36,258 bases of DNA, taken from positions 1 to 36,258 of the forward strand of contig NZ_JAFLKV010000154.1 in the NCBI RefSeq assembly GCF_019163035.1, in the 5' to 3' direction. The notes beneath the pieces were generated by a model. That model did no database searches and had not been told where the DNA came from. It saw only the letters and a list, made by a program, of their open reading frames with translations. A program made the translations under genes and the position numbers. The stretch comes from Sulfuricurvum sp. (GTDB taxonomy: Bacteria > Campylobacterota > Campylobacteria > Campylobacterales > Sulfurimonadaceae). This document shows positions 5,006 through 36,080 of the stretch, piece by piece (the first letter of the stretch is position 1; each line of letters opens with the position of its first letter).

Positions 5006-5056
5006 GTTTTTGATTGTTTTTTAATCAGTTTAATGGATGTGAATGTATGAGCTAAT

Positions 5057-5071
5057 AAATATGATATATTT
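5057..5071. promoter_or_regulatory. AT-rich inverted repeat, candidate operator upstream of cobA
   Basis: AAATATGATATATTT is a perfect 6-3-6 inverted repeat in the gap between the Rrf2 gene and cobA. Rrf2 proteins of the NsrR type bind AT-rich palindromes, so this is a candidate site for the neighbouring regulator. In a low-GC gap such repeats also arise by chance. Confidence 0.25.
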
Positions 5072-5118
5072 GATTAGTAAAAATGAGATAATTCGCAAGA
5101 CCCGATTATAGGGATTTT

Positions 5119-5544: not shown

Positions 5545-5554
5545 TTAAAAACCT

Positions 5555-8844: not shown

Positions 8845-9444
8845 CTAGCGGATGATATAGACTAAGGGAAAGAGGACAATCCACAGCAAGTCCACTAAAT
8901 GCCAATAGATTGCACCTGTTTCAAGACCTCTATGCTCCTGAGGAGTGTAGCCTTGGACTTTTGTTTTTTGGTAGAGATTGAACAAGATTATGACACCTAA
9001 AGAGACATGCATAAAATGAAACATGGTCAATAGTAGATAAAACATGAAGAAGGTATTGGTACTGAGGGTAATGCCTTGAGCAAAGATATGAGAAAACTCG
9101 CTCAGCTTTAAAAGGAGAAAAAGTATACCAAAGAGGATAGCCAATAAAAGCCATTGTGAAGCGACAATACTTGATTTATAGCTAGTGTGTTGTGTCATGT
9201 TTTTAATTTTTTGGACGGCTTTTATGATAAAAAAACTGCTCGTGATTAAAATAAGGGTGTTAATAAATCCGATATTTTTGTTCAGTAGAAGTTGAGAGTC
9301 ATTAAACATTTGAAGATTGGCTCTGCGTGAAAATGCGTACCCTACAAATAAAAGTCCAAAGGTGACTAATTCTACGTAGACAATAATCCAAATCGCAAAG
9401 TCACCTGGCGGATAGGGCTCTTTTATATCTAAAACTTTAGGCAT
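8845..9444 (-). CDS. norE: NorE-like protein (cytochrome oxidase subunit III family)
   Basis: A 199-residue membrane protein with five predicted helices. PYPPGDFAIWIIVYVELVTF at the N-terminus and HFMHVSLGVIIL with EHRGLETGAIYWHLVDLLWIVLFP near the C-terminus are hallmarks of the haem-copper oxidase subunit III family. In denitrifiers this family member is NorE, an accessory protein of nitric oxide reductase. The start at ATG 9444 gives the usual N-terminus; a TTG start at 9483 preceded by GAGG is also possible and would overlap norQ. It lies between norQ and norF. Confidence 0.8.
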   Translation of the reverse strand: MPKVLDIKEPYPPGDFAIWIIVYVELVTFGLLFVGYAFSRRANLQMFNDSQLLLNKNIGFINTLILITSSFFIIKAVQKIKNMTQHTSYKSSIVASQWLLLAILFGILFLLLKLSEFSHIFAQGITLSTNTFFMFYLLLTMFHFMHVSLGVIILFNLYQKTKVQGYTPQEHRGLETGAIYWHLVDLLWIVLFPLVYIIR

Positions 9445-10228
9445 TAATACTTTTTGTAAAATGGAGAGATATAAGCTTTTCAAGCACCTCTAAAACATCC
9501 TCTTCATCACTCAAAGATTCAACAATTGAATGGATGCATGCCTGATAGGGATCAAAGCCGTGGGCAATCAATTTCCCGGCATAAATGAGCAATCGTGTCG
9601 ATACCGCCTCTTGGATATCGCTGTCACTTAGTCGGCGGATTTCACCCGCAATAGCTACCAGTTTTTGGGCTATCGAGTCCTCCACACCGCTCTCCTTTAG
9701 GAGAATTTGTTTCTCAATTTCCGGCGAAGGATAATCAAAACTGAGCGAAATAAAGCGTTGTTTGGTACTGGGTTTCATCCCTTTTAATATATTTTGATAC
9801 CCCGGATTATAGGAGACGACCAACATAAAATCGGGATGGGCGGCGATCACTTCACCGGTACGATCAATGGGGAGAACCCGACGATAATCGGCGAGGGAGT
9901 GTAAAACGACCGTTGTGTCTTTACGCGCTTCAATAATCTCATCCAGATAGCAGATACCGCCGTTGCGCACCGCCTTCGTCAATGGTCCGTCTTGCCAATA
10001 TGTTCCGTTTTCATCGATAAGATGGCGGCCGACCAGATCGGCGGCGCTGAGATCATCATGACACACTACCGTGTAGACATCCCGTCCCAATTCTTCCCCC
10101 ATCGCTTCGATAAAACGTGTTTTTCCGCAGCCCGTCGGCCCTTTGATCAACACAGGGAGATTCATCCCCGCCGCCGCTTTGAAAAGCTCGATTTCGTTTC
10201 CTTGCGGCACATAGTACATTTTAGACAT
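9437..10228 (-). CDS. norQ: NorQ, MoxR-type AAA+ ATPase for NO reductase activation
   Basis: A 263-residue AAA+ ATPase of the NorQ/CbbQ group. Walker A is GPTGCGKT, Walker B is ICYLDEI, and the segment PSTKQRFISLSFDYP contains the sensor/arginine-finger region. With NorD it forms a chaperone that inserts the non-haem iron of NorB in known systems. The second ATG (10228) is chosen because AAGGA is 6 bases before it; the first ATG directly abuts that site. It follows norD by 11 bp. Confidence 0.92.
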   Translation of the reverse strand: MSKMYYVPQGNEIELFKAAAGMNLPVLIKGPTGCGKTRFIEAMGEELGRDVYTVVCHDDLSAADLVGRHLIDENGTYWQDGPLTKAVRNGGICYLDEIIEARKDTTVVLHSLADYRRVLPIDRTGEVIAAHPDFMLVVSYNPGYQNILKGMKPSTKQRFISLSFDYPSPEIEKQILLKESGVEDSIAQKLVAIAGEIRRLSDSDIQEAVSTRLLIYAGKLIAHGFDPYQACIHSIVESLSDEEDVLEVLEKLISLHFTKSINA

Positions 10229-10239
10229 AGTCATTCCTT

Positions 10240-12005
10240 TTATTTAGTCAAATTCATATAGATTTCGGGTAACACTTTGGGGAGTTTTTTGGCATCACGG
10301 ATCACGGCATAGGAGTTTCGCCCGAAAAGGTAGGGGAGGTACTCTTTCGCATCGATATCGATCGTGATACAAAACGGGGTGATCCCTTTTTGTTTCACCT
10401 CTTCGATCGCTTTTTTGGTATCTTCTATCCCGTATCGTCCGTCGTAACGATCGACATCGTTTGGTTTTCCGTCACTGAGAATCAGCAGGAGTTTGTTGGC
10501 ACTTTGCTGTTTCTCTAAAATCTTGGCACTTTCGCGTATCCCAGCTCCCATGCGGGTGTAATACCCCGGTTTAATGGCATGAATCCGACCGCGAACGTTG
10601 TCGTTATAGCTCTCTTTGAAATTTTTAATGAGATGAAAGTTGACCTTCGTGTTTTTGATCGATGAAAAGGTATAGATGGCAAACCGATCTTGAAGACGGT
10701 GCAATGATTCTGAGAACACCATCAGGGCATCTTGTATCATATCGATAACGCGTATCTCTTGCGTGATTCCCGCTTCGGTGGAGAGGGAAACATCCGCTAA
10801 AATCAACGTGGACATATCTCTCGTCTTTCTCTCAAACGTCTCGAAAAATCGCTGCGGATGATTGGAGCGGTTCTGATGTCCTTTGTAATCGATCCAAGTA
10901 TCGATATTGATCTCATCGCCGTAAGGGAGGTTATCTCTTTTGATACGGTCAAGTTCCATCAGATCCAGCTCACTCTGGATACAGCGCATCATTTTTTCCA
11001 GCCGCTTCGGCAATTCGATGGGTTCGGTATGGAGAGAAACTATGGGTTTTATGCAGACATAGTTTTTGAGATAGACTTCATACTTGTAATCCCATTCATC
11101 AATAAAATGTCCTTTCCCCAAAGGATACTCTTCAATACTGTTGGCAGAAATATCCAAATCCATTTTGATCCGTGCGGAGAGGTTGGCATCTTTTTGCCCC
11201 AGCGTTATCTCATCTAAATCTTCGGCATTGTAGAGGGCATCTTCATCAAAACTGTCGTTTTCCTGCCGATCAACCCGCACTTGCTCCATAAAGCTCAAAA
11301 TCGATTCGGGCAAAAAGAGGAGCAGTCCATCCGTCTCTTTTTTATCATCGATCTGTTCGCTTTTTTTCTTCATCTGCAAGGTTTCACTCTTGCGTGGTTC
11401 GTCATTTTGTCTTTCAACGTCCTCTTCATCCTCTGTAGTCAGGAGCTTGCCAGAGGTAGAAAGAGAAGGATAAATCCACAAAGGATTGGGATAATTATCC
11501 GCTGATGAGCCTTCGGATGAAGATTCAATCGTGGATAATTCTGGATAATTGGTTATTAAAAAAGGGTGTGCATAGGCATAAAATTCACTGAAACCGGCGT
11601 ATTTTTCAATGAGACCATTCGCTGCATTGATATTCTCATTTTCTATCTTTTTTGTTTTGATATTTACGTTTGCCAGCATCGCGATCAACCAATAATAGTG
11701 CATCTCATTGTATGCTCTGAGGGGGAAATAGGACAGAGAGGAAGGGAGGTAAATCCCTTTTTCATCTTGCCAGGCAAGGAAAAAAGTTTTACCAGTTCCT
11801 GAAAACTTCTCTAACAGTGTTCGTGACGTTTTAATTGATCGTTTATCGGTAATATGAAGTTCTTTGGCTTTTTCACCCCCTAGGAGGTGATAAAAGAGCT
11901 TTAACCTTTTGGCAATGTCCGCAAATACGATCTCTTCCTCTTTAAAAAGACGAGACGCTTTTTTGGTGACATAGTGATCCCAAAACTTACCGACTTTTTC
12001 ATCCA

Positions 12006-12006
<1 letters not shown>
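10240..12006 (-). CDS. norD: NorD, VWA-domain NO reductase activation protein
   Basis: A 588-residue cytoplasmic protein with a C-terminal von Willebrand A domain. The MIDAS motif DVSLS is at LILADVSLSTEAG, with the downstream threonine/aspartate region in YTRMGAGIRESA and LLLILSDGKPND. The middle is acidic and low in complexity. NorD is the partner of the NorQ ATPase in maturation of the NorBC complex. The ATG overlaps the norB stop as TAATG, so the two are translationally coupled. Confidence 0.92.
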
Positions 12007-13397
<1,391 letters not shown>

Positions 13398-13844
13398 TTA
13401 TCCTTTAATGTTTGGCGGCCACTCTTGATTGTTGACACGAGATGTCCAAATCAAAAAGTCTGCAAGATTATTCACTTGTTCCGGTGTTAAATGAAACTGT
13501 GGCATTTTTCTTCTGCCGGGCGCTTCTAGCGGCTGTGCCGCCATCCAACTGGCTAGATACGTTTTAAATACGACTTCATCTCCTCCGCTTAAACGTTGAA
13601 ATGAATTTCCTAGTTCAGGAGCATAATAAGCCCCTTCACCCATAATGGTATGACAACCGACACAGTTGTTGTTTTCCCATACTTTTTTCCCTAGAGCCAC
13701 TGATTCCGTAATTTGGTCATCATGACTTAATTTCGGAATTTGCTTTACGGTATCAAAGGAAAGCCCTGTAAATACCAATATGGCAAAAAGTCCCCCACCA
13801 AAGTAAATATTTCTGGCCATATTTTTAGTAATACGCTCAGCCAT
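13398..13844 (-). CDS. norC: Nitric oxide reductase cytochrome c subunit NorC
   Basis: A 148-residue protein with an uncleaved N-terminal membrane anchor (residues 13-31) and one periplasmic haem c site, CVGCH at 61-65. The methionine in GRRKMPQF is the probable distal ligand. It passes electrons from periplasmic cytochromes to NorB. The ATG at 13844 has AGGAG 7 bases upstream; the 40 further in-frame codons upstream are AT-rich and without a site. It is the first gene of norCBDQEF. No FNR-type box is visible in the 215-bp gap upstream. Confidence 0.95.
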   Translation of the reverse strand: MAERITKNMARNIYFGGGLFAILVFTGLSFDTVKQIPKLSHDDQITESVALGKKVWENNNCVGCHTIMGEGAYYAPELGNSFQRLSGGDEVVFKTYLASWMAAQPLEAPGRRKMPQFHLTPEQVNNLADFLIWTSRVNNQEWPPNIKG

Positions 13845-14059
13845 TTCAACTCCTATGTATAATTCCACCAATAGGTAGTAATTGAAATGATACCCTAACA
13901 ATTTTAATTCTACCTTTAAATAGTATATAAATAAATTCTCATGAAGGATGCGATGAATTAGCAATATTTAAAATAGAAAAATTAATGAAATAGTGAAGAT
14001 TATTTGTTTAAAAGGGGGATAACAGAAGAGTAAAAACCCTCAAAAGAGAGGTACATGAT

Positions 14060-14362: not shown

Positions 14363-14659
14363 TTATTTACTGATATGGGCAGCCAAAGTGGTTATTTGAG
14401 CATCTGTTAATGACATAACTTGCCCTTTCATAATCGCTTTTGACGCTGCACCGTAGGTACCGTCTTTGTATCCTTTGAGTGCCATGATAATTTGTGCACT
14501 GCTCATATCTTTGATGATTTTGCTTTTACCAAGTGCCGATTTTTCACCCTGAACACCATGACAGGCCGCACATTTTTTAAATAGATCCGTCCCTTCATCC
14601 GCCGAAGACGTACTCCATAGACCGAACAAAACACTTACCGCAACTAACACTTTTTTCAT
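14363..14659 (-). CDS. Small periplasmic monohaem cytochrome c (c553 type)
   Basis: A 98-residue protein with a signal peptide (MKKVLVAVSVLFGLWSTSSA) and one haem c site, CAACH. The methionine in AIMKGQVMSLTDAQ is the likely sixth ligand. It resembles the class I cytochromes c553 that carry electrons in the periplasm of Campylobacterota. It stands between nrdG and norC and has its own FNR-type promoter, so it is a plausible electron donor to NorC, though this is inferred. AGGAG lies 7 bases before the ATG. Confidence 0.9.
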   Translation of the reverse strand: MKKVLVAVSVLFGLWSTSSADEGTDLFKKCAACHGVQGEKSALGKSKIIKDMSSAQIIMALKGYKDGTYGAASKAIMKGQVMSLTDAQITTLAAHISK

Positions 14660-22771: not shown

Positions 22772-25561
22772 TTATGCTTTATAGATTTTGACAGCGCATT
22801 TTTTATGGTCGATTTGTTTGGAAATCGGGCAGGTATGATCCAAACAAACTTTATTGATGAAGACTTTTTCATCAAACCATGGAACAAATACGAGTCCGCG
22901 CGGAGGACGGTTACGACCCCGTGTTTCGACGTGCGCTTTTACTTTGCCGCGACGAGATTCGACCCACACCATATCCCCTTGTTTGACTCCCCGTTTTTCA
23001 GCATCTTTCGGATGTATATAACAGAGTGCTTCAGGGACGGCACGATAGAGTTCAGGAACCCTCATCGTCATTGTTCCGCTGTGCCAATGTTCTAACACCC
23101 GACCGGTACAAAGCCAGATATCGTAGTTGCTATCGGGTACTTCGGTCGGTTCCATGTATGGTCGGAAAAAGATTTTGGCTTTACCGTCCAAATGAACTTT
23201 TGTTTGATCGGTAACCCCTTGGAGATTACCCGATGGGATCTCTTTAAAGGCATGCCCGTAAAATGAGAACGGACCGCTGTTCGCTTTTTTCGCATACGGA
23301 TCGTATTTGGCGTTGTAGCGCCATGCGGTCTCTTTTCCATCCACAACCGGCCATTTCAAACCGCGTACTCTGTGATAGGTGTCAAAGTCGGCATAGTCAT
23401 GTCCATGTCCGTCACCGAATTTGCGGTACTCTTCCCATAGGTATTTTTGGAGGAAGAAGCCATACCCTTTAAATGGTTTGCCATCACTTCCGATGACGTT
23501 ACGTTTGTCCCCTTCGACTTCAGAGTTTTGGTATCCTTTACCGACCGGATCAGGCCATTTATAGCTTTTTGCAGTTGGATTGGCAAATAAAACATCATAA
23601 AGGGTATCGGTCTCCTTGTACCCCATCGCTTTTGCTGCACCCATGACATCCGGCAATCCATTATCAAGTCCTGGAATTCTTTGTGCTCCCCATACTTCTT
23701 TGATGGTAAATCGTTTAGAAAGCTCAACAAACTGCCATGTATCGGACATCGCGTCTCCGATTGGAGTGACCTGCTGACGCCAGTGTTGAGTACGACGTTC
23801 CGCATTACCGTATGCCCCCCATTTTTCATACATCATGGCACTCGGAAGGATCAAATCCGATACTTTCGCCGAAATCCCCGGATATCCGTCAGAGGTAACA
23901 ATAAAGTTATCCATTTCACGAGCGGCTTTGATCCAGTGCTCTGCATTGCCCGTATCTTGATACGGGTTACAAACGCTCACCCAGGCAAATTTCACTTTAC
24001 CGTCTTCAAGATCACGATGGATCTGAGTGAAATGGGATCCCGCTTTTGGATTGATTGTGCCGGCTGGAACATGCCAAATTTCTTCGGCTCTTTTACGATG
24101 GGCAGGGTTCATAACGACCATATCTGCTGGAAGACGATGACTAAATGTCCCCACTTCACGTGCGGTTCCGCAGGCGGATGGTTGACCGGTAAGAGAGAAC
24201 GCTCCACTTCCCGGTTTAGCTTGTTTTCCGAGAAGGAAATGGATCATATATGCTTGTTCGTTGACCCATGTACCACGGGTGTGTTGATTGAACCCCATCG
24301 TCCAGAAGGTGAGACATTTACGTTTTTTCTCGATGTAGAGATCGGCCATTTTTTGAAGTTTTACTTTGAAATCTTCAATGCTCTCATCAGGGTCACCTTT
24401 GGCAACATGCGCCGTATAATCAAGAGTATAAGGTGCAAGACCCTTTTTAAACTCTTCAAAAGTGATTTTCCAGTGTTTATTGGCATCATTGGTATTTTTC
24501 ATCTCGAGCGTATCACCCGCTTTGTAGCCCAAATAGCCTAAGCTGACACCCTCATCGGCGGTGAGAACTTTCGATTTTTGCTTGGCGGCGGTATCAAGTT
24601 CACTTTTTTTGTATTTTGGATGATGAATATCTTCGCGCAATCCGTAGCCGATATCGACGGGACCAGTAGCAAATATAATGTATTTGTTGACAAAATCCCA
24701 ATCAATCGCTTCGGGGTGGTTGTAAACAATCTCGCGGGCGATATAGTTGAAAATCGCTAAATCGGTATTAGGCTTAAAGATGATTTCGACGTCTGCAAGG
24801 TCCATCGTACGGTGTTTGTACGTTGAGAGAACGACTACTTGTACTTTATCTGGATTGCTGAGTTTACGATCAGAGACACGAGACCAGAGAATAGGGTGCA
24901 TCTCCGCCATATTCGAACCGAACGCTACAATCGTTTCAGCGAGTTCGATATCATCATAACATCCTGAGGGTTCATCTGCTCCGAAAACGTTCATAAATCC
25001 GGTAACGGCAGATGCCATACACAAACGGGCATTCGGATCGATATTGTTGGTACGGAAACCTGCCTTCATCAGTTTAAGAGCAGCGTTTCCTTCCAAAATA
25101 GTTTGTTGACCTGAACTGAACATGGCGATACCGGTCGGCCCTTTTTCTTTGAGGGCAGATTTAATCTGTACTTCCATTTCATCAAACGCACGTTTCCAGC
25201 TAATAGGTTTAAATTTACCATGCTTGTCAAATTGCCCTTTATCGTTCATCCGTAAAAGGGGTTGGGTCAGACGGTCTGCTCCGTACATGATTTTGGCATT
25301 AAAGTACCCTTTAATACAGTTAAGACCACGATTGACGGGAGCAAGCGGGTCACCTTTGACCGCAACGATACGGTCATCTTTAGTTGCCATCATGATTCCG
25401 CAACCGGTTCCGCAAAAGCGGCATGCCGCTTTATCCCAGCGCCATCCTGCTTGTGCTTGATTTGATGCGGCTTCTACGCTTGCAGGAACTGCTATACCAA
25501 CTGCGGATGCCGCTGCTGCTGCAGCGGCACTTTTTAAAAACTCTCTTCTATCCAATGACAT
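22772..25561 (-). CDS. napA: NapA, periplasmic nitrate reductase catalytic subunit
   Basis: A 929-residue molybdopterin enzyme that reduces nitrate to nitrite in the periplasm. The Tat signal is LDRREFLKS. The [4Fe-4S] ligands are C47, C50, C54 and C82 (CRFCGTGC). C181 in NARLCMAS is the molybdenum ligand. The length and inserts near 310-400 and 680-760 match NapA of Campylobacterota, about 100 residues longer than in enterics. It is the first gene of the unit and is preceded by an FNR-type promoter at 25660-25701. Confidence 0.97.
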
Positions 25562-26638: not shown

Positions 26639-27295
26639 TTATAGTCCCTCGTTGAAATATCGCGTTAATTCTTCACGTTGTAAAACGATTGTTTTATGAT
26701 CTTCTTCCATAATCAGCCCTTTACGGATAAATTTAGCCAATACACGTGAAAGAGTCGCAGGTTGAATATTGAGCCGATAGGATATCTCTTGTTTCTTTAG
26801 TCGATTGTATAAATCCAAATGATCATAAAGCATCTTTGCCACTTTTGCAGTGACATCATAGACCATCCCCATACTCACCATACAATCCACACGTTGTTTT
26901 TGATCGGCGAGGATATTGACTAAATTAATCAAGAGCGATACATCGGTTTTGACTACTTCTTTAAAAGTTTTAAGATCGAATGATACCACACGACTCGGAA
27001 CCAAAAATTCTATATTACTAAAACAGCTGATACTATGACATTCGAGAGAACCGATATCCGTTAGAAGAGTTTGGTTTGAGAGGGTATATAAAAAGATTTC
27101 ATTATCAAAACGGTCAACTTTATAGAGTTTAACTTCCCCCTCAACGAGGAAATAGACGCGATTAATATCATCTTCTTCATAGACCAAAATATCAGATGTA
27201 TTATAACTTTTAAATTTGGCGGTCGAAGAGAGGAGGGATAATTTTAGAGGATCGCAATCTTTAAAAAAATCAAGATTCTCGAGTTGGAATATCAT
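26639..27295 (-). CDS. Crp/Fnr-family transcription regulator
   Basis: A 218-residue regulator with an N-terminal cyclic-nucleotide-binding fold (VYFLVEGEVKLYKVDR) and a C-terminal helix-turn-helix (SYRLNIQPATLSRVLAKFIRKGLI). It lacks the N-terminal cysteine cluster of FNR, so it does not sense oxygen by that route; NO sensing (NnrR/DNR-like) or another signal is possible. In the recognition helix the Ser-Arg pair is kept but the glutamate usual in CRP and FNR is alanine (PATLSR). It is divergent from moaA and shares one FNR-type box with it, suggesting autoregulation. It is the best local candidate for the regulator of the boxes in this window. Confidence 0.88.
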   Translation of the reverse strand: MIFQLENLDFFKDCDPLKLSLLSSTAKFKSYNTSDILVYEEDDINRVYFLVEGEVKLYKVDRFDNEIFLYTLSNQTLLTDIGSLECHSISCFSNIEFLVPSRVVSFDLKTFKEVVKTDVSLLINLVNILADQKQRVDCMVSMGMVYDVTAKVAKMLYDHLDLYNRLKKQEISYRLNIQPATLSRVLAKFIRKGLIMEEDHKTIVLQREELTRYFNEGL

Positions 27296-27420: not shown

Positions 27421-28386
27421 ATGTTGCGAGATCGTTATGACCGTAAAGTCACCTATTTGCGTGTATCGGTTACAGAGCGTTGTAATTTTCGATGTCGCTA
27501 CTGTATGGCTGAAAAACCCTTTAGTTGGGTCCCTAAAGAGAACTTATTAAGTTATGAAGAACTATTTTCATTTATTAAAATCGGTATTGATAACGGTATC
27601 CAAAAAATTCGTCTTACCGGTGGGGAACCGACGACCCGTGAGAATCTTGATGAGCTGATCGGTATGATCCATACCTATGCGCCGAATGTTGATATCGGAT
27701 TAACGACCAATGGCTTTTTACTTCCAGCACAGGCAGAGAAACTCAAATGTGCAGGGTTGCGACGTGTTAATATTTCACTTGATTCGCTAAATCGTGAGAC
27801 ACTTGATTATATCACACAAAAAGATGTGTTAGAACAAATACTAACTGGAATAGATGCTGCATCAGACGCCGGGTTATCTATTAAACTCAATAGCGTTATT
27901 TTACGAGGTATTAATGATCATGAAATAGTCCCCCTGTTTGAATATGCAAAAGAGATAGGTGCACAAATCCGCTATATTGAATACATGGAAAATTCCCATG
28001 CTCATGAAACACTGCAAGGTCTTCGAAGTGATGAGATTATCGAGGTATTGGGTAAATCTTATCCGTTCATTCCGATTGATAGAGACGAGAGTGGACCGGC
28101 AAATCTGTATGAAACACCGGATGGGTATCGGTTCGGAACCATCGAACCCCATCGCCACGATTTTTGCGCGACGTGTGATCGTTTGCGACTCACGGCGGAG
28201 GGAGATTTGATTGGGTGTTTATACTTCGAGGGGGCAAAAAGTATTAAAGAGGCGATACGTGAGGGCAATATTGCTAAAGCAACCCAAATTTTAGAGGATG
28301 TTGTGTTTAACAAACCCGAAAAAAACCTTTGGGGAATTGAAAACATCGAGATCTCTTCTCGTGCCTTTTACCGTACCGGAGGTTAA
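27421..28386 (+). CDS. moaA: MoaA, GTP 3',8-cyclase (molybdenum cofactor synthesis)
   Basis: A 321-residue radical SAM enzyme for the first step of molybdopterin synthesis. The N-terminal cluster is bound by C21, C25 and C28 (CNFRCRYC). The C-terminal GTP-binding cluster is DFCATCDRLRLTAEGDLIGC. The chain ends in GG, as active MoaA does. Control by the FNR-type box ties cofactor supply to NapA. GAGGATC precedes the ATG. Confidence 0.96.
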   Translation: MLRDRYDRKVTYLRVSVTERCNFRCRYCMAEKPFSWVPKENLLSYEELFSFIKIGIDNGIQKIRLTGGEPTTRENLDELIGMIHTYAPNVDIGLTTNGFLLPAQAEKLKCAGLRRVNISLDSLNRETLDYITQKDVLEQILTGIDAASDAGLSIKLNSVILRGINDHEIVPLFEYAKEIGAQIRYIEYMENSHAHETLQGLRSDEIIEVLGKSYPFIPIDRDESGPANLYETPDGYRFGTIEPHRHDFCATCDRLRLTAEGDLIGCLYFEGAKSIKEAIREGNIAKATQILEDVVFNKPEKNLWGIENIEISSRAFYRTGG

Positions 28387-28455: not shown

Positions 28456-28896
28456 GTGACATGGATTTTGTATATTCATATCCTCTCAGCTTGTGCATGG
28501 ATCGGTGGAAGTATCGTATTGTTCGGACTTGGGGTATTTATTCGGGATAAGGCGACCCAAGAGGTAGTGTACGGTACTATTGGGCCGTTTTACGGCTATT
28601 TTGAAACAGTATGGCTACTTATTTTAATCTCTACTGGATTGGCATTAGGGGAGCATTTTCAACTTTTTAGTTTAATGAACAGCGATACGGAACTCGGACA
28701 TTATGTCGTATGGAAATTAGTGCTGGTTTCACTCCTCAGCATAGCAACGATGGTGCATCTTTACATTGCTTTTGCCACTCACAAGACAACCCGTACCTTG
28801 GTTCAAAAGTTCCTATCACGTGGAGGATCACTCGCCATTTTTCTCTTAAATTTGGCTATTTTATGGGTCGCGATCAACATCCGCTCTGCTTTGTAA
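28456..28896 (+). CDS. CopD/DUF2269-like four-helix membrane protein
   Basis: A 146-residue inner-membrane protein with four predicted helices. ILYIHILSACAWIGGSIVLFG in helix 1 and the histidine in ATMVHLYIAF resemble the His-bearing helices of the CopD and DUF2269 families, some of which may bind haem or copper. The start is GTG 28456 with AAAGGAG 5 bases upstream; a TTG at 28396 lies within the FNR-type box, upstream of the predicted transcript start. It has its own FNR-type promoter. Function unknown; a role in copper or haem handling for denitrification is a guess. Confidence 0.75.
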   Translation: MTWILYIHILSACAWIGGSIVLFGLGVFIRDKATQEVVYGTIGPFYGYFETVWLLILISTGLALGEHFQLFSLMNSDTELGHYVVWKLVLVSLLSIATMVHLYIAFATHKTTRTLVQKFLSRGGSLAIFLLNLAILWVAINIRSAL

Positions 28897-28900
28897 AGAA

Positions 28901-28936
28901 GAAGGTTTATGGATTAAATTTTTTTAATCCACCTTC
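28901..28936. terminator. Two-way hairpin between converging genes
   Basis: GAAGGT (28901-28906) pairs with ACCTTC (28931-28936), and inside it GGATTAAA (28911-28918) pairs with TTTAATCC (28923-28930). The left side has a 4-base bulge. The structure separates the CopD-like gene from the converging rhodanese gene and overlaps the last codons of the latter. There is no T run beyond the stem, so efficiency is uncertain. Confidence 0.5.
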
Positions 28937-29332
28937 AAGATAGATCACATGTTTAAATCCTAATTGTTTTAATCGCTGCGCTGCAAATACCGATCTTGGC
29001 TCCAATGCACAATAGACGACAAAGGTATCCTCTTTAGTGTATTTATCAAGTATCAGTTTCGGATATTTGATTTCTAGAAATCCCCGTGAAATTTTAACTT
29101 GACGGTCATAATTAATGGTGCTTTTTTCCCATTCATCCGGGTCTCTTACATCGAGTAGAATAATTTTTTGCTCAACCATCCACTCTTTTAACTTTTCTGC
29201 TTGAACCGGTTCCACTTGCATTTTGGCTTCTTTGAGCAGCACCTTTGTCTCATCGCTCAATATCGGTTCATTTGCCCAAAAGGTTCCAGATGCTAACAAC
29301 AATGGAAAAATGATCGTAATGATTTTTTTCAT
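28907..29332 (-). CDS. Periplasmic rhodanese-domain protein
   Basis: A 141-residue single-domain rhodanese with a signal peptide (MKKIITIIFPLLLASGTFWA). The domain begins with MVEQKIILLDVRDPDEWEKS and the active-site cysteine is in VVYCALEPRSVFAAQRL. Such domains carry sulfane sulfur, or only a fold without catalysis. The active cysteine is present here. It is divergent from the fmdE-like gene and shares its FNR-type box. The substrate is unknown. Confidence 0.88.
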   Translation of the reverse strand: MKKIITIIFPLLLASGTFWANEPILSDETKVLLKEAKMQVEPVQAEKLKEWMVEQKIILLDVRDPDEWEKSTINYDRQVKISRGFLEIKYPKLILDKYTKEDTFVVYCALEPRSVFAAQRLKQLGFKHVIYLEGGLKKFNP

Positions 29333-29359: not shown

Positions 29360-29401
29360 ATAGTAACTAAAGGGGAGGGGATCTATCTTGATTTAGGTCA
29401 A
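29360..29401 (-). promoter_or_regulatory. FNR-type promoter of the rhodanese gene
   Basis: The box TTGATTTAGGTCAA (29388-29401 as read on the plus strand) has TACTAT at 29365-29360 on the minus strand, centres 32 bp apart. The predicted start is near 29353, about 20 bp before the ATG. Confidence 0.65.
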
Positions 29402-29429
29402 GCTCAATACTTTTTTTAAAATGTAAAAT
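29388..29429 (+). promoter_or_regulatory. FNR-type promoter of the fmdE-like gene
   Basis: The same box (29388-29401) is followed by TAAAAT at 29424-29429, centres 32 bp apart. The predicted start is near 29436, about 29 bp before the GTG. Confidence 0.7.
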
Positions 29430-29464
29430 AAGTAAAAATATAGAAACATAAAAGGCAGCTATCC

Positions 29465-30079
29465 GTGAGCAATACATCTTTTTTTAATAGTGTTCCCGTC
29501 ATCACTATGTATGATCCCCTAGCAGAAGTTCTGGGTGCGGCAAGTGAAGGAATTTTAGTATATACCTATGCAGATGCTGTCAAACTCGCAGGGCACTCCT
29601 GTCCAACAATCGCGGGGGTATATTTGATGATGCGAAAAGGGCTGAGTCTTTTATATCCGGATACTCTTCCTCTGCGAGGTGGAATCCGTGTTTCTATGCA
29701 AGGTCACGCAGGGGATGGAGTGGTCGGAGTGATGGCGAATGTCGCCTCATTGATTACAGGGTCTACTGAAATAAGCGGATTCCATGGGTTGGGCGGAAAA
29801 TATGACCGACGCGGGTTATTAACGTATGGAGCAGATATAAGAGGGGAAATGGCGTTAGAACGTATCGATACCGGTACGTGCATTTATCTCTCTTACAACC
29901 CAAAAATAGTTGTTGGGGATCCTATGCTGCAAGAGTGGTTAGGTATGATTTTATCTGACAAAGCAAATTTAGAGATTGAAAAATCATTCCAAAATGGATG
30001 GCAGGAGCGTGTTAAATCGATTCTTATTGATTACGCTGAACATCCTGCATTAGTTACTTATATTTTTGAGGAGAAATAA
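29465..30079 (+). CDS. FmdE-domain protein
   Basis: A 204-residue protein. LAGHSCPTIAGVYLMMRKGL matches the conserved GH-x-CP segment of the FmdE family (a domain named after a formylmethanofuran dehydrogenase operon protein). No formylmethanofuran dehydrogenase genes are nearby, and this organism type does not make methane. There is no C-terminal zinc-finger domain and no signal peptide. The start is GTG at 29465. It is 1 bp ahead of a cytochrome c gene and has an FNR-type promoter. FmdE proteins bind metals; a link to molybdenum or haem metabolism is a guess from context. Confidence 0.75.
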   Translation: MSNTSFFNSVPVITMYDPLAEVLGAASEGILVYTYADAVKLAGHSCPTIAGVYLMMRKGLSLLYPDTLPLRGGIRVSMQGHAGDGVVGVMANVASLITGSTEISGFHGLGGKYDRRGLLTYGADIRGEMALERIDTGTCIYLSYNPKIVVGDPMLQEWLGMILSDKANLEIEKSFQNGWQERVKSILIDYAEHPALVTYIFEEK

Positions 30080-30080
30080 T

Positions 30081-30488
30081 ATGATTAAAATAGGGTTATT
30101 TTTAAGTCTATCGTTATCACTTTTTGCAGTTGATGGGTATAGTGTTTATCAAAAAAAATGTATGAAATGTCATGTTGAAATCATGGAGAAATCGGAGGTT
30201 CTAAAAGTAATTCATACGCTAAAAGCACCTCCGATGATCGAAGTGTCTAACCGTCTTCGTGAAAACATCATCATAGCCGATGACGACCAAGATGTAAAGC
30301 GCCGAGTAACGATCGCTTTTATCAAAGATTATATTGAAAATCCGAGTGTACAATACAGTATGTGCCATCCAATGGCAATCGAAAAATTTGGAATTATGCC
30401 ATCTTTAAAAGGGAAGCTAAATGAGGTTGAAAAACAAGCGGTTGCAGAGTGGATTATCGATAGATATCGTGAGAGTAAATTTAGATAA
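30081..30488 (+). CDS. Periplasmic cytochrome c-like protein
   Basis: A 135-residue protein with a signal peptide (MIKIGLFLSLSLSLFA) and one haem c site, CMKCH. A later MCHPMAIEKFGIMPSL contains a Cys-His pair and candidate methionine ligands but no second CxxCH. The ATG at 30081 has GAGGAG 7 bases before it; a longer reading from 30066 lies inside the fmdE-like gene. It ends the chromosomal denitrification block. Its redox partner is unknown. Confidence 0.82.
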   Translation: MIKIGLFLSLSLSLFAVDGYSVYQKKCMKCHVEIMEKSEVLKVIHTLKAPPMIEVSNRLRENIIIADDDQDVKRRVTIAFIKDYIENPSVQYSMCHPMAIEKFGIMPSLKGKLNEVEKQAVAEWIIDRYRESKFR

Positions 30489-30619: not shown

Positions 30620-30829
30620 CTAACTTGCGGCTTCAATGGTATTAGATTCGATAAATTTGAGTAATGCTGCTCTGCTGACATGAATTTTATTCCCGATTTT
30701 TACAATCTCCAACTCTCGATTGGATATCAGTTTTTTAGCCATATCTACTTTAATCAATCCCAGTTCTTCGATTTGTCTAAGATTAAATAATATAGCATTT
30801 GGGATCAGTTCGTCAAAGTTCGTTTTCAT
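30620..30829 (-). CDS. Excisionase-like helix-turn-helix protein
   Basis: A 69-residue protein with one MerR-like winged HTH of the HTH_17/excisionase type (LGLIKVDMAKKLISNRELEIVKIGNKIHVSRAALLKFIES). Such proteins are common in integrative elements and plasmids as directionality factors or repressors. ATG 30829 follows GGAG at 8 bases; the ATG at 30847 is an alternative. It is 81 bp downstream of the Rep-like gene. Confidence 0.7.
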   Translation of the reverse strand: MKTNFDELIPNAILFNLRQIEELGLIKVDMAKKLISNRELEIVKIGNKIHVSRAALLKFIESNTIEAAS

Positions 30830-30837
30830 GGGTGGTT
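30822..30837. repeat. Copy 1 of a 16-bp repeat at a translation start
   Basis: GTTTTCATGGGTGGTT covers the start region of the HTH gene. The identical 16 bp occurs at 33895-33910 over the start of the Gp157-like gene; both proteins begin with MKT. Confidence 0.7.
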
Positions 30838-30910
30838 CTCCTATCATTTGGATTTTGGGTATGAGTAATTTCTCAATAGAGTGGAAGTGTTAAAATTTTT
30901 ATACAGAAGC

Positions 30911-31825
30911 TTAGTAGCTTCGTATTGGTGAATGATAGATTACGCCAAAATCACGGTCATAATAAATATGCAGTAGATAATCTATAAAACTAGCAATATA
31001 TGCCATATTCGGATACAACCTGTATTCTTCAAACCCTAATCTTTTAATCTCACGTCTTTGAGGGTTTTTGTAGTTGTTATAAGCGTCTATTTTTGAACTC
31101 TTTATTTCAATATCCTCAAAGTACATCACATGATATCGATGCAAAGCATTCTGAATAGGGGTTATATCAAAGCCATATTTATTAAAAAAAGCCGATTGTA
31201 ACTTTATCTCGAATCTCGTAATATTGTATGAAAGTCCCTCTTTGAGCCTTTTATCGTAAAGATATGACCTCAATATCGCTTTGTTCCGCTTACTTTCTTC
31301 AATATTCTCAATATAGGTCGTTTGGTTCTCATAAGTTTGCGGTTCACCAACCCTCCAATAGTTCGTTTTAGGAGATTTTTTCGTACAGATAGCCAACATA
31401 TGCTCAAAGGAGACATTAGTATCTATAGCAACATCAAGTTCTGTAAATTTGAAAACTATTTGATTGCTATTAAGGTAAGCGCATATAAATGCCAAAATAT
31501 TATTTGATTGCTGATCAGCATCATCGTTGTAGCTTTTCAATCCTGCGAACTTTACAGAGATGTAGTATCTGATCACGGCGTAACCGTTTACTATAGTCCT
31601 AGAGCTACCTGTGTTAATAGTAAGCAAAGTTGTTTTATTCGCATATAGCGAATATTCAATCTTAACAATATCAGTGGGTTTGTTTTGATAAACATCTTTT
31701 GAATCCGCATAGAATCCAAATGTACTAATGTAATTCAACAAATCATTCAGTATCATCTTTTGTATTACTGAGTCATTGCAGTCTATCTGTACGGTTACGG
31801 TGTCTATGTAAGTTTCGTAGTCCAT
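30911..31825 (-). CDS. Rolling-circle-type replication initiation protein (Rep_trans-like)
   Basis: A 304-residue protein. FTELDVAIDTNVSFE resembles the RxDxAxD motif, and YLYDKRLKEGLSYNITRFEIKLQ the YxK...RxE-x-x-L motif, of pT181/phage-type replication initiators. No integrase or relaxase is nearby. The family call is from motifs only and could be wrong; the protein may equally act in transfer or phage replication. The ATG at 31825 sits 3 bases after a hairpin that buries its ribosome-binding site (31829-31850). Confidence 0.5.
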   Translation of the reverse strand: MDYETYIDTVTVQIDCNDSVIQKMILNDLLNYISTFGFYADSKDVYQNKPTDIVKIEYSLYANKTTLLTINTGSSRTIVNGYAVIRYYISVKFAGLKSYNDDADQQSNNILAFICAYLNSNQIVFKFTELDVAIDTNVSFEHMLAICTKKSPKTNYWRVGEPQTYENQTTYIENIEESKRNKAILRSYLYDKRLKEGLSYNITRFEIKLQSAFFNKYGFDITPIQNALHRYHVMYFEDIEIKSSKIDAYNNYKNPQRREIKRLGFEEYRLYPNMAYIASFIDYLLHIYYDRDFGVIYHSPIRSY

Positions 31826-31828
31826 TGT

Positions 31829-31850
31829 TTTATCCTAAGTGATGGATAAA
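31829..31850 (-). promoter_or_regulatory. Hairpin that hides the rep ribosome-binding site
   Basis: In the minus-strand RNA UUUAUCC pairs with GGAUAAA across an 8-base loop. The AGGA of the ribosome-binding site lies at the start of the 3' arm, and the ATG follows 3 bases after the stem. This would limit Rep synthesis. Confidence 0.45.
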
Positions 31851-31895
31851 GGAATAAATTGAACTGACTATCTACGACTCTTTTTATGTACTCTA

Positions 31896-31916
31896 ATGTC
31901 ATATTTGGTATGACAT
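31896..31916. promoter_or_regulatory. Inverted repeat upstream of rep, candidate operator
   Basis: ATGTCATA-TTTGG-TATGACAT is a perfect 8-5-8 inverted repeat about 70 bp before the rep ATG. A repressor site or origin element is possible; the HTH protein at 30620 is a candidate ligand. Confidence 0.4.
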
Positions 31917-32065
31917 ATAGGTCTATATTATAGAGACGAAAAATTATGCGAAAATCTGCTGGATTGATTCGCTAATTTATATGTCCGTTTTTATCCCTTT
32001 TCACTACATAGGCAACGTTAAAAAAAATAATCACACATATATTTATTTGTAGGGCTATATAGGCT

Positions 32066-32091
32066 AAAAGAAAGGGATATCCCTTTCTTTT
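32066..32091. terminator. Perfect 26-bp palindrome, two-way terminator
   Basis: The 26 bp are a perfect palindrome with GGGATATCCC at the centre, an AAAG-rich left arm and a CTTT-rich right arm. The T run on either strand gives a rho-independent terminator. It overlaps the DUF2958 stop codon and ends the 34725-32090 operon. Confidence 0.8.
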
Positions 32092-32386
32092 AACACTTGA
32101 TCTTAGAAAACGGTGTGGGCATAAACGATTCATCCCGCTCCACCGAAATACCCAAAGAGCCTTGAAGTGATTCCAACTCTTCAAGCGAGATGTAGCCAAA
32201 CTCAGATTCCAATCCAATGACATAGCCGAAGCATAAGTTGTGATCTTCTTTTGAAATCTCAGTGACGTACCACGTCCATTTTGTGCTTGGAAGAAAAAGC
32301 TTGATATGGCATATCGGATCGGGTGTTTCCTCGGTTTCATACAGATCGGGGATAGTGTTAAGCAATTCTTGCGGTATTAATGTCAT
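32090..32386 (-). CDS. DUF2958 protein
   Basis: A 98-residue protein. The order LYETEETPDPICHIKLF, WTWYVTE, FGYVIGLESEFGYISLEELES and GISVERDESFMP matches DUF2958 over its full length. This family is common on plasmids and integrative elements and has no known function. It is the last gene of the DUF932-gp157-rad52 operon, 9 bp after its neighbour. Confidence 0.85.
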   Translation of the reverse strand: MTLIPQELLNTIPDLYETEETPDPICHIKLFLPSTKWTWYVTEISKEDHNLCFGYVIGLESEFGYISLEELESLQGSLGISVERDESFMPTPFSKIKC

Positions 32387-32395
32387 TAATTGCTC

Positions 32396-32614
32396 CTATA
32401 GCTCTAAGTGGCGTATCATGTCGCCCACATACTGTACGGCTATAACTTCTTTGAACCCATGCTCTAAAAGATAGTCTTGATTGTGTTTAAAGCTCACAAA
32501 TGCTTCAAAAATATTATCACCTTCCCCGTCACCGAGGATTTGCATGTTGTGCAGCTCTTTGTGATTGGGATCAAACGTGAATCCCTCTAAGGTAAAGAAT
32601 AAAAACTTTTTCAT
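32396..32614 (-). CDS. Small protein of unknown function
   Basis: A 72-residue protein beginning MKKFLFFTLEGFTFDPNHKE. I do not recognise a family. It has no signal peptide or membrane helix, is acidic, and looks like a compact alpha/beta domain. The start at 32614 is 1 bp after the rad52-like stop; a longer reading would run back through that gene. Position in a tight operon supports it as real. Confidence 0.7.
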   Translation of the reverse strand: MKKFLFFTLEGFTFDPNHKELHNMQILGDGEGDNIFEAFVSFKHNQDYLLEHGFKEVIAVQYVGDMIRHLEL

Positions 32615-32615
32615 C

Positions 32616-33305
32616 TTATGCCGCTTGTTGTTCGATTGGCTTGTACCACTGTTTAGATTTCCCGTCCCATCGGAAGCCAAATGATTTGATACTGTCCTTT
32701 TTCGAAAAGAGATCATCGCCCGTAACGATAAGATACTCTCCTTGCGTCACGACGGACAATCCAATATTATAGAGTGATGCGTAATCTTGCGGTGTAGCGT
32801 TTTGAAGCTGTTTCGGCGGTTGGGATGAATGCTGTTTTGGGGGTTCTAATTGTGCAGGTGGTTGATTACCATAAGATCGGCTTTTACCGCCGTAAAGACT
32901 ATTGCCAAACTGATTTCCGAAGCTACGGAAACACCGTTTGAGTGCATCGGTCACTGCTTCCTTTGCTCCACCTTCGTGTGCATCGGCTAACGATTTGGCA
33001 ATTCCCGTTCCGAAACCGACATCTTCACGACTGACGTGTTTGGTATGGAGATGATCGTAGACAGTAAGAGATACAATAGCTTTATAGCCCACTACGAGGT
33101 TTTGTTTTTCGTTGGTTTCTTGGGAAACGTGTTCGAGTGTTGATACGCTATAACTCCAGTGACCATATCCGAATATCTTATTCGCGGTATCGATAATGTC
33201 AAACCCCTCCAGATAGGAGAGACTGACGCTTCCTTTTTCACGGGTTTTAATACGGCTTGGATCGAGATCATATGAGAGGACTTGAATTATTTTTTCATTA
33301 AGCAT
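32616..33305 (-). CDS. Rad52-like single-strand annealing protein with a C-terminal add-on
   Basis: A 229-residue protein. Residues 1-140 match the Rad52/Rad22 annealing domain (GYGHWSYSVSTLEHV, VVGYKAIVSLTVYDH, AKSLADAHEGGAKEAVTDALKRCFRSFGNQFG). A Gln/Pro/Ser-rich linker (about 145-170) leads to a final domain with SIKSFGFRWDGKSKQWYKPI, a pattern resembling DUF5710-type modules. Annealing proteins of this kind serve recombination in phages and plasmids. A strong GGAGG precedes the ATG. It lies 9 bp after the Gp157-like gene. Confidence 0.85.
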   Translation of the reverse strand: MLNEKIIQVLSYDLDPSRIKTREKGSVSLSYLEGFDIIDTANKIFGYGHWSYSVSTLEHVSQETNEKQNLVVGYKAIVSLTVYDHLHTKHVSREDVGFGTGIAKSLADAHEGGAKEAVTDALKRCFRSFGNQFGNSLYGGKSRSYGNQPPAQLEPPKQHSSQPPKQLQNATPQDYASLYNIGLSVVTQGEYLIVTGDDLFSKKDSIKSFGFRWDGKSKQWYKPIEQQAA

Positions 33306-33314
33306 GAGAGCCTC

Positions 33315-33902
33315 CTATGCCGCTTCTTGGTTTTCAACCAATGTAAGCAGTTCGGTGGCTTGATTATTAGCGTGTGAATGTCTGGCATTAACTTTAATGC
33401 GAGCGGGTATTTGTTCGGTGATTACCCCGACCTCTACATATTGATCTACTTCGTTCATACTCTCTAAGGTGGACATCGCTTCACGAACCGCTTGCTCATC
33501 GACTACGACACTGCAATATCCTAATTGGATAAGAGCTTGCTCATCGATGATCTTGAATGTTTCTGCGAGTTTAGTTTTTGAGGGGGTAATGGTGATACTA
33601 GAGATCACCGTGCCATCAAGTCTATCAATCCCGTATTCTGATAATACGGTGGCGATTGCTTCCAGTGCAACGGTTTTAGCATCGGAGAGAGACTTTTTTA
33701 ATGCACTCATCTCTTTAATATCTTCGGAGAGATAATCGATTTTATTCTGGATTTCTTGGATGCTGAGACCGATATAATCGGCTTTAGTATAATAAGGTTT
33801 ATCGGACTCCAATACTATACGTAATTGATTTTTAAACCATTCTTGTTTATCTGATTTGACGTTTTGCATTTCGATAACTAAGCGGTAATCGGTTGTTTTC
33901 AT
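33315..33902 (-). CDS. Gp157-like phage/plasmid protein
   Basis: A 195-residue protein with a coiled coil (about 45-85) followed by ALEAIATVLSEYGIDRLDGTVISSITITPSKTKL, the helix-then-strand pattern of siphovirus Gp157-like and host-nuclease-inhibitor proteins, including the final position where such proteins name short beta residues. It could protect element DNA from host nucleases, which would suit its Rad52 neighbour. Assignment is by pattern. The start shares a 16-bp sequence with the HTH gene start. Confidence 0.6.
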   Translation of the reverse strand: MKTTDYRLVIEMQNVKSDKQEWFKNQLRIVLESDKPYYTKADYIGLSIQEIQNKIDYLSEDIKEMSALKKSLSDAKTVALEAIATVLSEYGIDRLDGTVISSITITPSKTKLAETFKIIDEQALIQLGYCSVVVDEQAVREAMSTLESMNEVDQYVEVGVITEQIPARIKVNARHSHANNQATELLTLVENQEAA

Positions 33903-33910
33903 GGGTGGTT
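33895..33910. repeat. Copy 2 of the 16-bp translation-start repeat
   Basis: Identical to 30822-30837 and placed in the same way around the ATG, here of the Gp157-like gene. Confidence 0.7.
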
Positions 33911-33915
33911 TCCTT

Positions 33916-34725
33916 TTATGCGGCTAATAGTAGATTGGGTTCTTTGATCGATGCTATACGCTCAGCGATATCCCAGAGACCTTGATTGACATCTACATCT
34001 TTAGAGATAGAGGTAATCTCACGGCTAGTAAAGCGTCTACCGCTCTCTTTGTTAATACCTGAGACGTTTCCTCGAAGTAGATTTTCTTGGATAACATTGA
34101 ATACGGTATAAAGATCATTTTTGGAATCTTGCTCTCTGTGCGGGACTAATAAATCCCGATGATCGATTTGTAAATGGTTTTCAAACCGTAGGGGAATCGC
34201 ACTAAGGGCGAAAGACTCTTTTTCAAAGGAGCTTAATTCAATTGATTCGAGTTTGCTGATCTTCTCCATCAGTTTAGGCTTGATAGCGGTGATGCTTGCA
34301 ACGGCTGCGGCGACATCGTTATCGCGATCACCTAGATGTTTGATTTTATAGCTTTCAAAGACGCTCTCAGCGACTACAAGACCGTTACTACATACAAAGC
34401 GGAATATTCCCGCTGAGATCGTAAAGCTTTTACTACGGTCGTGCGAGTTGAAGAGTATTAATTCAACGGCATTGTCTTGTGGTACTAAGAGATCGTCGAA
34501 GTGACGGAATCGTACAAGGTGTTGTTGATATCCTTCTTTATCGGCATCACGAACGGAAGCTTCCGAAACTGACATTGGGTACCAGTTGTTGCGGCGGATT
34601 TCATCGATAACCTCGATGGTCGGGATGAAGCAATATTTTTCACTTACTTCGCGGTGAGGTTCTTGCGTGAAGAGTGTTGGCGCTTGCTCTTTGAGTTTCT
34701 CGTTGGATAATGGGATAGCTGACAT
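33916..34725 (-). CDS. DUF932 protein
   Basis: A 269-residue protein. CFIPTIEVIDEIRRNNWYP, HLVRFRHFDD, VELILFNSHDRSKSFTISAGIFRFVCSNGLVV and LPLRFENHLQ-type segments follow the DUF932 pattern seen on plasmids and phages, often beside recombination genes. Function is unknown. It is the first gene of a five-gene operon ending at the palindrome 32066-32091. AAAGGAAAA precedes the ATG. Confidence 0.85.
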   Translation of the reverse strand: MSAIPLSNEKLKEQAPTLFTQEPHREVSEKYCFIPTIEVIDEIRRNNWYPMSVSEASVRDADKEGYQQHLVRFRHFDDLLVPQDNAVELILFNSHDRSKSFTISAGIFRFVCSNGLVVAESVFESYKIKHLGDRDNDVAAAVASITAIKPKLMEKISKLESIELSSFEKESFALSAIPLRFENHLQIDHRDLLVPHREQDSKNDLYTVFNVIQENLLRGNVSGINKESGRRFTSREITSISKDVDVNQGLWDIAERIASIKEPNLLLAA

Positions 34726-35096
34726 GGGGTTTTCCTTTGTATGGTTATTTAGTAATTCAAGAATTAAGATCCAAAGGATTTTTCTTGGATAGATTGTTGA
34801 CTACGATGGTAGCGACAGCGATTGCGACGGTTAAACACTTCGTGATGGATAGCATGAGGCTCCTTGGTGGGGATTCGTTGGTTGATTACAGTGTGATAAT
34901 ATGGGTTTGTAATGAGGTGGAAATCAAGTTTAGTAGGGTTGCTTAGGGGTAATTGTGGCTCATCAGCGGGGAATCTCTAGCTATTCAGCAGTATACTGTG
35001 TGAAGCTCGCCAAATAGTAAATGGTATTTAGAGCTTATGTTGATATGGGAAGAGCAAAAGTCGTGGCTAGTTTAGGGATGATTTTTTAGATCGTTG
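34726..35096. other. 371-bp gap without a convincing gene
   Basis: It holds the upstream region of the DUF932 operon and the downstream region of the next gene. The only structure noticed is a short inverted repeat, ATCCAA and TTGGAT, at about 34770-34791. No tRNA, terminator with T run or clear promoter pair was found. Confidence 0.5.
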
Positions 35097-36080
35097 TTAT
35101 GATTCGAATATCTCTTCCACATCTTCAACCGATAAATATGTAATATGTGCAATATCTGCAATGGAATACGTATCTAACACTTTGTTGGGATTTAATTTAA
35201 TAAATTGTATTAATTTTGAAGCAATATCATTCCTAATTCGCTTTTCCATATTGGTCGATAAATCATAAGCTTTAAAATTTTTATTTGGTCTGTATACAAA
35301 ACTTTTAAGTTTCTTACTCTTTGGAGTACAAGTTATACTTTTATCCCCAAAACTCTCTCGAAAATACCGTCCAGTTTCAGTAGGATTAGCTTCAGGCTTA
35401 AAGAAATATAATCGATAAAGATGCATGGCAAGATTAGACGTTAAAAGATTTTTATGCTTTAAAAGTTCAAGATCTTCATTGATTTTACCATTTAGATCTT
35501 TATCTAGATAACTATCGTATCTAAAAAATCTTTTAATAAAATCGTTTCTATACTTTATAAAATCACTCAGATACGGTTTCAACTCATCATTTTTAAGCAA
35601 CGCTATAAGCCCTTGCTTCGTAGTATCAAAGCCATTAAGGTAGTAATTTAAACAATCAGGAAAGCCTATAGGCTCTATATCTTGAATTTTACTGGTCGAA
35701 ATTTTATTAAATGTATCAACCGCGTCTTCTTCTAGTGCAAAAAGTATCTTTTGACCTTTATCACTAAAAAAATTCATTAATTGCGTTATTTCGGAAACAG
35801 AGTTGGCATCTACTAAAAAAATAAAATTTTTTATACTTTCTTGCATTGATCTTTTAAATATAACATTATCAACATTTTGAATATACTCTTTAAGATATGA
35901 TCGTTTGTTTATATCTGATATATGACAATTGAAGCTTCTGTGAAAACAATTTAAATTATAATGAATTGTCTCGTTCTTTGACGATTCACAAAACAGTAAT
36001 ACAACTTCTTTATTTTCACAATTACTATATAAATTAGTAAACCAATTTAAAAGTAATATTTTTCGCATTGCATCTTTCAC
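35097..36080 (-). CDS. AT-rich protein of unknown function
   Basis: A 327-residue protein starting at GTG 36080 with AGGAG 5 bases upstream. I do not recognise its family. The N-terminal 130 residues alternate strands and helices (KEVVLLFCESS, IKNFIFLVDAN, KILFALEEDAV), as in a Rossmann-like sensor or nuclease fold. The C-terminal 45 residues (IRNDIASKLIQFIKLNPNKV, then SIADIAHITYLSVEDVEEIFES) resemble the small helical end of several transposase/nuclease families. Codon use is clearly more AT-rich than in the rest of the window, suggesting recent acquisition. Confidence 0.65.
   Translation of the reverse strand: MKDAMRKILLLNWFTNLYSNCENKEVVLLFCESSKNETIHYNLNCFHRSFNCHISDINKRSYLKEYIQNVDNVIFKRSMQESIKNFIFLVDANSVSEITQLMNFFSDKGQKILFALEEDAVDTFNKISTSKIQDIEPIGFPDCLNYYLNGFDTTKQGLIALLKNDELKPYLSDFIKYRNDFIKRFFRYDSYLDKDLNGKINEDLELLKHKNLLTSNLAMHLYRLYFFKPEANPTETGRYFRESFGDKSITCTPKSKKLKSFVYRPNKNFKAYDLSTNMEKRIRNDIASKLIQFIKLNPNKVLDTYSIADIAHITYLSVEDVEEIFES

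Follow-up and report, generated by a model that had tools for sequence, protein, structure and literature searches.

The locus raises the question of what an FmdE-like gene does in a Sulfuricurvum-like bacterium in which no methanofuran pathway is apparent, searches of its 88% complete genome having returned neither a PF02663 nor an FTR match, in agreement with an earlier note on this DNA. The window, i.e., the whole contig that was analysed (36,258 bp), places the gene (fmdE) 1 bp ahead of a cytochrome c gene by the open reading frames and near genes for nitrate and nitric oxide (NO) reduction (Table 1). By computational analysis, fmdE appears to be switched on with the nitrate- and NO-reducing genes of this organism, and this co-regulation, combined with a tendency in relatives to accompany NO reductase, suggests that its product, a small cytoplasmic protein with a distant relationship to the FmdE of methanogens, probably assists denitrification as a helper not yet characterised. 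NosZ had no match in the own genome either, and at 88% completeness the term 'denitrification' may describe a partial pathway here.

Table 1. Features of the window that bear on the FmdE-like gene and its putative regulon.
Feature	Position	Strand	Details
nnrS, 5' end	2-124	-	cut by contig end; PF05940, 3.3e-4 on 41 aa
Box TTGACATAAATCAA	179-192		precedes cut nnrS; ~62 bp to ATG
norB (12006-13388) and norC (13398-13964), NO reductase	12006-13964	-	assigned from sequence
Box TTGATATAGGTCAA	14715-14728		precedes cytochrome c gene 14363-14659, upstream of norCB
napA, periplasmic nitrate reductase	22772-25561	-	NF010055, 1437.8 bits
Box TTGACCTAAGTCAA	25688-25701		upstream of napA, 133.5 bp
Crp/Fnr-family regulator, Nss/DNR-like candidate	26639-27295	-	without N-terminal Cys cluster, by reading
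Box TTGATCTAAATCAA	27351-27364		between crp and moaA; 62.5 and 63.5 bp to starts
moaA (molybdenum cofactor biosynthesis)	27421-28386	+	assigned from sequence
Box TTGATTTGAATCAA	28391-28404		precedes membrane gene; 58.5 bp to start
Membrane protein (cluster c63)	28456-28896	+	probable GTG start 28456; own box
Rhodanese (cluster c86)	28907-29332	-	141 aa; Sec-type signal peptide by eye; PF00581, 9.4e-15
FNR/DNR-type box TTGATTTAGGTCAA	29388-29401		common to rhodanese and fmdE, divergent
Candidate -10, TAAAAT	29424-29429	+	predicted; read from the letters, absent from consensus-search matches
FmdE-like gene (fmdE)	29465-30079	+	204 aa; GTG start; without signal peptide; LAGHSCP motif (H44, C46)
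Monohaem c-type cytochrome	30081-30488	+	135 aa; ATG start; signal peptide by eye; CMKCH

The window has six copies of the perfect form of the box, TTGAYNNNNRTCAA, where shuffled sequence would give 0.29, and none of 100 shuffles reached six. These sites precede nnrS, the cytochrome c gene of the nor region, nap, the crp/moaA pair, the membrane gene and the rhodanese/fmdE pair, at similar distances to the start codons (58.5, 62.5, 62.5, 62.5, 63.5 and 70.5 bp) apart from napA as an outlier (133.5 bp). The divergent promoter that fmdE was previously proposed to share with a periplasmic rhodanese is recovered at the 29388-29401 box, with the fmdE start codon 70.5 bp away on one side and that of the rhodanese 62.5 bp away on the other, though the rhodanese adjoins fmdE in just four loci. 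The palindrome, of the TTGAT-N4-ATCAA type, lies upstream of fmdE at a predicted class II spacing, as the candidate -10 element would set its centre at -41.5. The excess of boxes in the window, together with the conservation of the fmdE box upstream of orthologues, argues that the latter is no chance match.

Among orthologues, a box matching the consensus at 9 or more of 10 positions precedes fmdE in 17 of 28 loci of the genus compared with 21 of 389 other genes in the same loci (p 5e-13, relatedness ignored), and in 12 of 60 loci outside the genus compared with 25 of 726 control genes (p 5e-6, relatedness likewise ignored), where some of the control matches are themselves shared divergent boxes. 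The neighbours differ among the boxed loci, which indicates that the box travels with the gene.

Control had been described in the earlier note as FNR-type; the FNR/DNR-type box is conserved, but FNR itself is an unlikely regulator because Campylobacterota are reported in a review to be without FNR orthologues (PMC6682613) and the regulator on the nap side has no N-terminal Cys cluster by reading. An Nss/DNR-like regulator is probably the better candidate, and the nap-side Crp/Fnr product would be the natural choice; a Crp/Fnr regulator also recurs beside fmdE in other families. Wolinella uses Nss-type proteins (NssA/B/C) for nitrate, NO and N2O (PMC6682613), and Dnr-type sites precede the nap, nor/nir and nos units of Nitrosophilus labii (PMC11539149). 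The window resembles these regulons in the position of the regulator next to nap and in the FNR/DNR-type boxes ahead of the nap and nor units, and departs from them by the addition of the FmdE-like gene, moaA, the rhodanese, the membrane gene and the cytochrome, for which no earlier report of membership in an Nss/DNR-type regulon was found.

Several other features of the contig should be noted. The cut nnrS with its own perfect FNR/DNR-type box (2-192) lies outside the stretch covered by the earlier note. Assimilatory nitrate/nitrite reductase-like genes, assigned mostly by reading, occupy 256-8472, within which a transporter and an Rrf2-like regulator flank a phosphatase-kinase fusion ORF (5555-7237, likewise mostly by reading). 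The small membrane protein at 28456-28896 has weak similarity to UPF0093 (E 0.1) and adjoins the cytochrome in two other loci (L161 and L162). At the right end, the minus strand of 30620-36080 carries an excisionase-like HTH gene, a DNA-recombination-like gene and ORFs of unknown kind with, by reading, the look of a mobile element, such that the fmdE-cytochrome pair may sit at an element border.

Assigning the protein to a family required its relatives. Pfam and NCBIfam searches returned nothing for the window protein, even when the threshold was loose, and, with the PF02663 search of its own genome empty, orthologues were used instead. PF02663 was matched by 22 of 29 FmdE-like proteins of the genus (best 3.6e-5) and by 24 of 27 divergent orthologues from across the phylum (best 6.3e-8), with orthologues at 33.2, 30.4, 30.2, 27.9 and 24.8 bits above the curated cut-off of 22.9 bits. 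The label 'FmdE-domain' given to the gene previously therefore rests on the orthologues, the window protein itself having no detectable domain. As the matches align residues of about 41-190 to profile positions 1-129, nearly the whole FmdE core, the protein belongs, by sequence comparison, to a remote branch of this family. The structural match is weak: an AlphaFold model from four sequences (the window protein and three relatives) reached a moderate pLDDT of 65, its best PDB fold match was the FmdE-like 3d00 without significance (E 0.18, TM 0.34-0.37), and sequence searches of the PDB returned chance matches only. A search under 'FmdE family protein' returned no paper, and for the family as a whole structures exist while an established function was not found in the literature considered.

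The putative metal site is partly lost. In FmdE, the metal is held by two His and one Cys in an FHGHxC motif and by a distant Cys (Axelrod 2010, PMC2954224). The corresponding motif here is LAGHSC, in which the second His and the Cys are kept and the first His is replaced by Ala42; at the fourth ligand, alignment by eye sets Val89, Asn92, Ser95 and Thr101 against Cys55 and Asp58/Gln61/Thr67, which would leave His44 and Cys46 as the only two of the four ligands. Both are invariant in every FmdE-like sequence aligned from the phylum-wide sample, where the further invariant positions include D17, G24, G43, S45, G51, R71, G88, G105, F106, G108, R115, F175, Q180 and V183. Compared with the family (PF02663; structures 2glz, 2gvi and 3d00; PMC2954224), the core-domain alignment, the GHxC His and Cys and, by eye, the TGxT segment of the second motif are shared. 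The differences are the first-motif His, the apparent Cys-to-Val change, an apparent Asn92 for the motif 2 Asp, an N-terminal extension of ~40 residues, a C-terminal zinc finger that was not seen and, for the window member, a score below detection. Loss of ligands is also known in some true FmdE members, such as 3d00 (PMC2954224). A divergent FmdE-like subfamily with GHSCATVAG/GHSCGTVAG and GFGGIP motifs was observed in other contexts (L101, L120, L147 and L148) and is at times the second copy within one genome (G289, G184 and G101).

No formylmethanofuran dehydrogenase genes lie beside fmdE. Such a neighbourhood is found for just 13 of 208 FmdE-family genes (PMC2954224), so it is no strict criterion for the family.

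By its distribution, the gene is associated with NO reduction. A scan of genome contigs with the single protein recovered three relatives only, and the counts used here derive from a whole-genome search, which places fmdE in 29 of 41 Sulfuricurvum genomes and in 138 of 397 Campylobacterota genomes (36 of 68 genera). All co-occurrence counts ignore phylogeny and include many incomplete metagenome-assembled genomes. Co-occurrence of the fmdE-cytochrome pair with nap, nor and nos had been suggested as a check, and a presence of the pair mainly in genomes without nitrate reduction would have spoken against the idea. For fmdE that pattern was not found: NapB is in 127 of 138 carriers compared with 205 of 259 non-carriers (p 0.0009, phylogeny ignored), which, along with the box regulon, upholds the link to nitrate and NO respiration. 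Within Sulfuricurvum, NorB is present in 19 of 29 carriers and 0 of 12 non-carriers, and NapA in 21 of 29 and 2 of 12, a pattern that persists among genomes at least 90% complete (NorB 15/24 vs 0/6; NapA 18/24 vs 1/6). Outside the genus, in a sample stratified by fmdE presence (39 carriers and 15 others), NorB was matched in 26 carriers, three of them by weaker, longer homologues, compared with one of the others (p 1e-4), NosZ in 18 (one partial) compared with none, and NapA in 33 compared with nine (p 0.07). NnrS is also commoner in carriers. Of the NorB-positive genomes examined, 45 of 46 carry fmdE, a ratio that is no population frequency because of the stratified sampling. Carriage of fmdE is thus more closely associated with NO reductase than with nitrate reductase.

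Gene neighbourhoods point in the same direction. In 29 of 88 fmdE loci, from several families and with differing gene orders, at least one gene of a nitrogen-oxide set lies within six genes; the set comprises NapA, nap accessory genes, the Crp/Fnr regulator, a PilJ-type sensor, two kinds of DUF2249 (which we take to be COG4309), a DUF1858-DUF2249 protein, SufT-like PF01883, hemerythrin and a multi-TM protein of ~420 aa. Outside Sulfuricurvum, fmdE often adjoins NapA, DUF2249, SufT-like or hemerythrin genes. For the COG4309 family, Rodionov 2005 predicted a link with NO reductase (PMC1274295); in Thermus, nitrate reductase reaches its full activity only when the DUF2249 protein DrpA and DrpB are both present (PMC6282519). 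Accessories named in the former study (NnrS, COG4309 and hemerythrin) are the kinds of genes that cluster or co-occur with fmdE in these relatives; an FmdE-like member was not found in the passages of that study considered. The multi-TM protein (cluster c2) has an APPF or APPIS start and a QLLPVV-like motif and matches neither Pfam nor NCBIfam. Several families have it next to fmdE, DUF2249 and SufT-like genes (L103, L121, L135, L039, L100 and others), and it may be an unnamed NnrS-like family. Conserved xseA-, ribD-, hisG- and trpS-like neighbours were also considered as functional clues and were judged to reflect lineage synteny rather than function.

The main rival to a denitrification helper is a protein that handles metals or cofactors generally in free-living Campylobacterota, lacks a specific nitrogen-oxide role and is placed under nitrate/NO control in those lineages alone where metal or cofactor demand rises. 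The breadth of the distribution across genera would fit such a role, as would the position of most FmdE-family genes near metal-ion transporter genes (Axelrod 2010, PMC2954224) and the six carriers with neither NapA nor NorB (G017, G024, G032, G036, G319 and G182). Its prominence derives from Sulfurimonas-type genomes, where fmdE belongs to a housekeeping operon that has no box, overlapping or abutting an xseA-like gene, and from a Sulfuricurvum sublineage in which fmdE stands beside an aldo/keto reductase-like gene and the box is mostly missing. Against it stand the strong association with NorB, NapA and NnrS inside one genus, the conserved box and the way in which several families repeatedly show fmdE linked to the nitrogen-oxide module, and this general role is considered rather unlikely, if worth keeping in view.

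The earlier note had suggested a metal- or sulfur-handling step in the maturation of molybdenum or haem enzymes, and such a step is possible. In its molybdoenzyme form, the protein would serve the insertion or sulfuration of bis-MGD in NapA, consistent with the presence of moaA and napA in the same regulon, with NapB in nearly all carriers and with the fact that some organisms transcribe fmdE together with genes for formylmethanofuran dehydrogenase (PMC2954224). However, the Nap-bearing families f2, f3 and f5 are almost all without fmdE, so Nap there does not need it, and the frequency of such families lowers the standing of a Nap-specific factor. With the weaker association of NapA than of NorB outside the genus and a carrier (G343) that has NorB and no NapA match, NapA maturation is improbable.

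An assembly factor for NO reductase itself, acting in the insertion of haem or non-haem iron into NorB, would account for fmdE in nearly every NorB-positive genome examined and agrees with the NO reductase-related prediction for its COG4309 neighbours (PMC1274295). Many carriers are nonetheless without NorB, and the nor cluster of the window already includes norQ- and norD-like genes (9437-12006, by reading), making this explanation quite improbable.

The cytochrome has the CxxCH motif and, by eye, the signal peptide of a Class I cytochrome c, together with the conserved Met (in FGxMPS) of PF13442/PF00034, and differs from them in a conserved APPMxEVS segment and an extra invariant Cys (SMC); against Cytochrome_CBB3 it scores 24.8 bits, just under the cut-off of 27, which one orthologue passes. 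Of 31 Sulfuricurvum loci, 11 have it next to fmdE, with a truncated remnant there in another genome, and it is strongly conserved in 8 of 12 Sulfuricurvum genomes without fmdE, where it has unrelated neighbours and its own box ~34-87 bp upstream. In two genomes it follows the same membrane gene that starts at 28456 in the window, and in G001 an intact copy directly precedes a second nap operon. That genome also has the remnant, a 72-aa frame right after fmdE (C1:67787-67936; compare L161). The cytochrome thus belongs to the regulon independently of fmdE and is not its dedicated partner. That the two proteins form one functional unit, as their earlier description as a pair implied from a 1 bp spacing that does stand, is rejected as scarcely credible despite the 11 adjacent loci and the reversed adjacency in another family (L139), since the cytochrome is missing from most fmdE loci, persists with its own box where fmdE is absent, and is expected in the periplasm while the FmdE-like protein is expected in the cytoplasm.

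The preferred reading thus remains that of a cytoplasmic accessory of nitrate/NO respiration, and, taken jointly with Nss/DNR-type activation, a metal or thiol role and a separate cytochrome, it stands at about an even chance. Under it, an Nss/DNR-type Crp-Fnr regulator, probably the product of the gene next to nap, would activate fmdE through the class II box and co-activate nap, nor, nnrS, moaA, the membrane gene and the cytochrome. The conserved Gly-His-Ser-Cys, the remainder of the FmdE metal site, would most likely bind a metal or act as a reactive thiol, and the protein, acting beside neighbours like the DUF2249, SufT-like and hemerythrin proteins, may protect, repair or help assemble cytoplasmic metal centres that NO would reach. 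We infer the chemistry at H44/C46, the protective or assembly role and the acting regulator alike. The cytochrome, a separate member of that regulon, would carry electrons in the periplasm and be co-transcribed with fmdE only sometimes.

More tentatively, and with something less than an even chance, these proteins may constitute an unrecognised family of denitrification accessories: a Campylobacterota branch of the FmdE fold with its metal site partly lost, retooled for cytoplasmic metal centres under NO and found almost always with NO reductase. The branch stands apart from methanogenesis; its regulatory context is clear and NO reductase is its strong genomic partner, in bacteria that are active in nitrate- and sulfur-linked cycling. 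A 'function unknown' gene thereby gains a testable phenotype in nitrate/NO respiration, and the few denitrification accessory genes listed for the Campylobacterota are joined by a further candidate.
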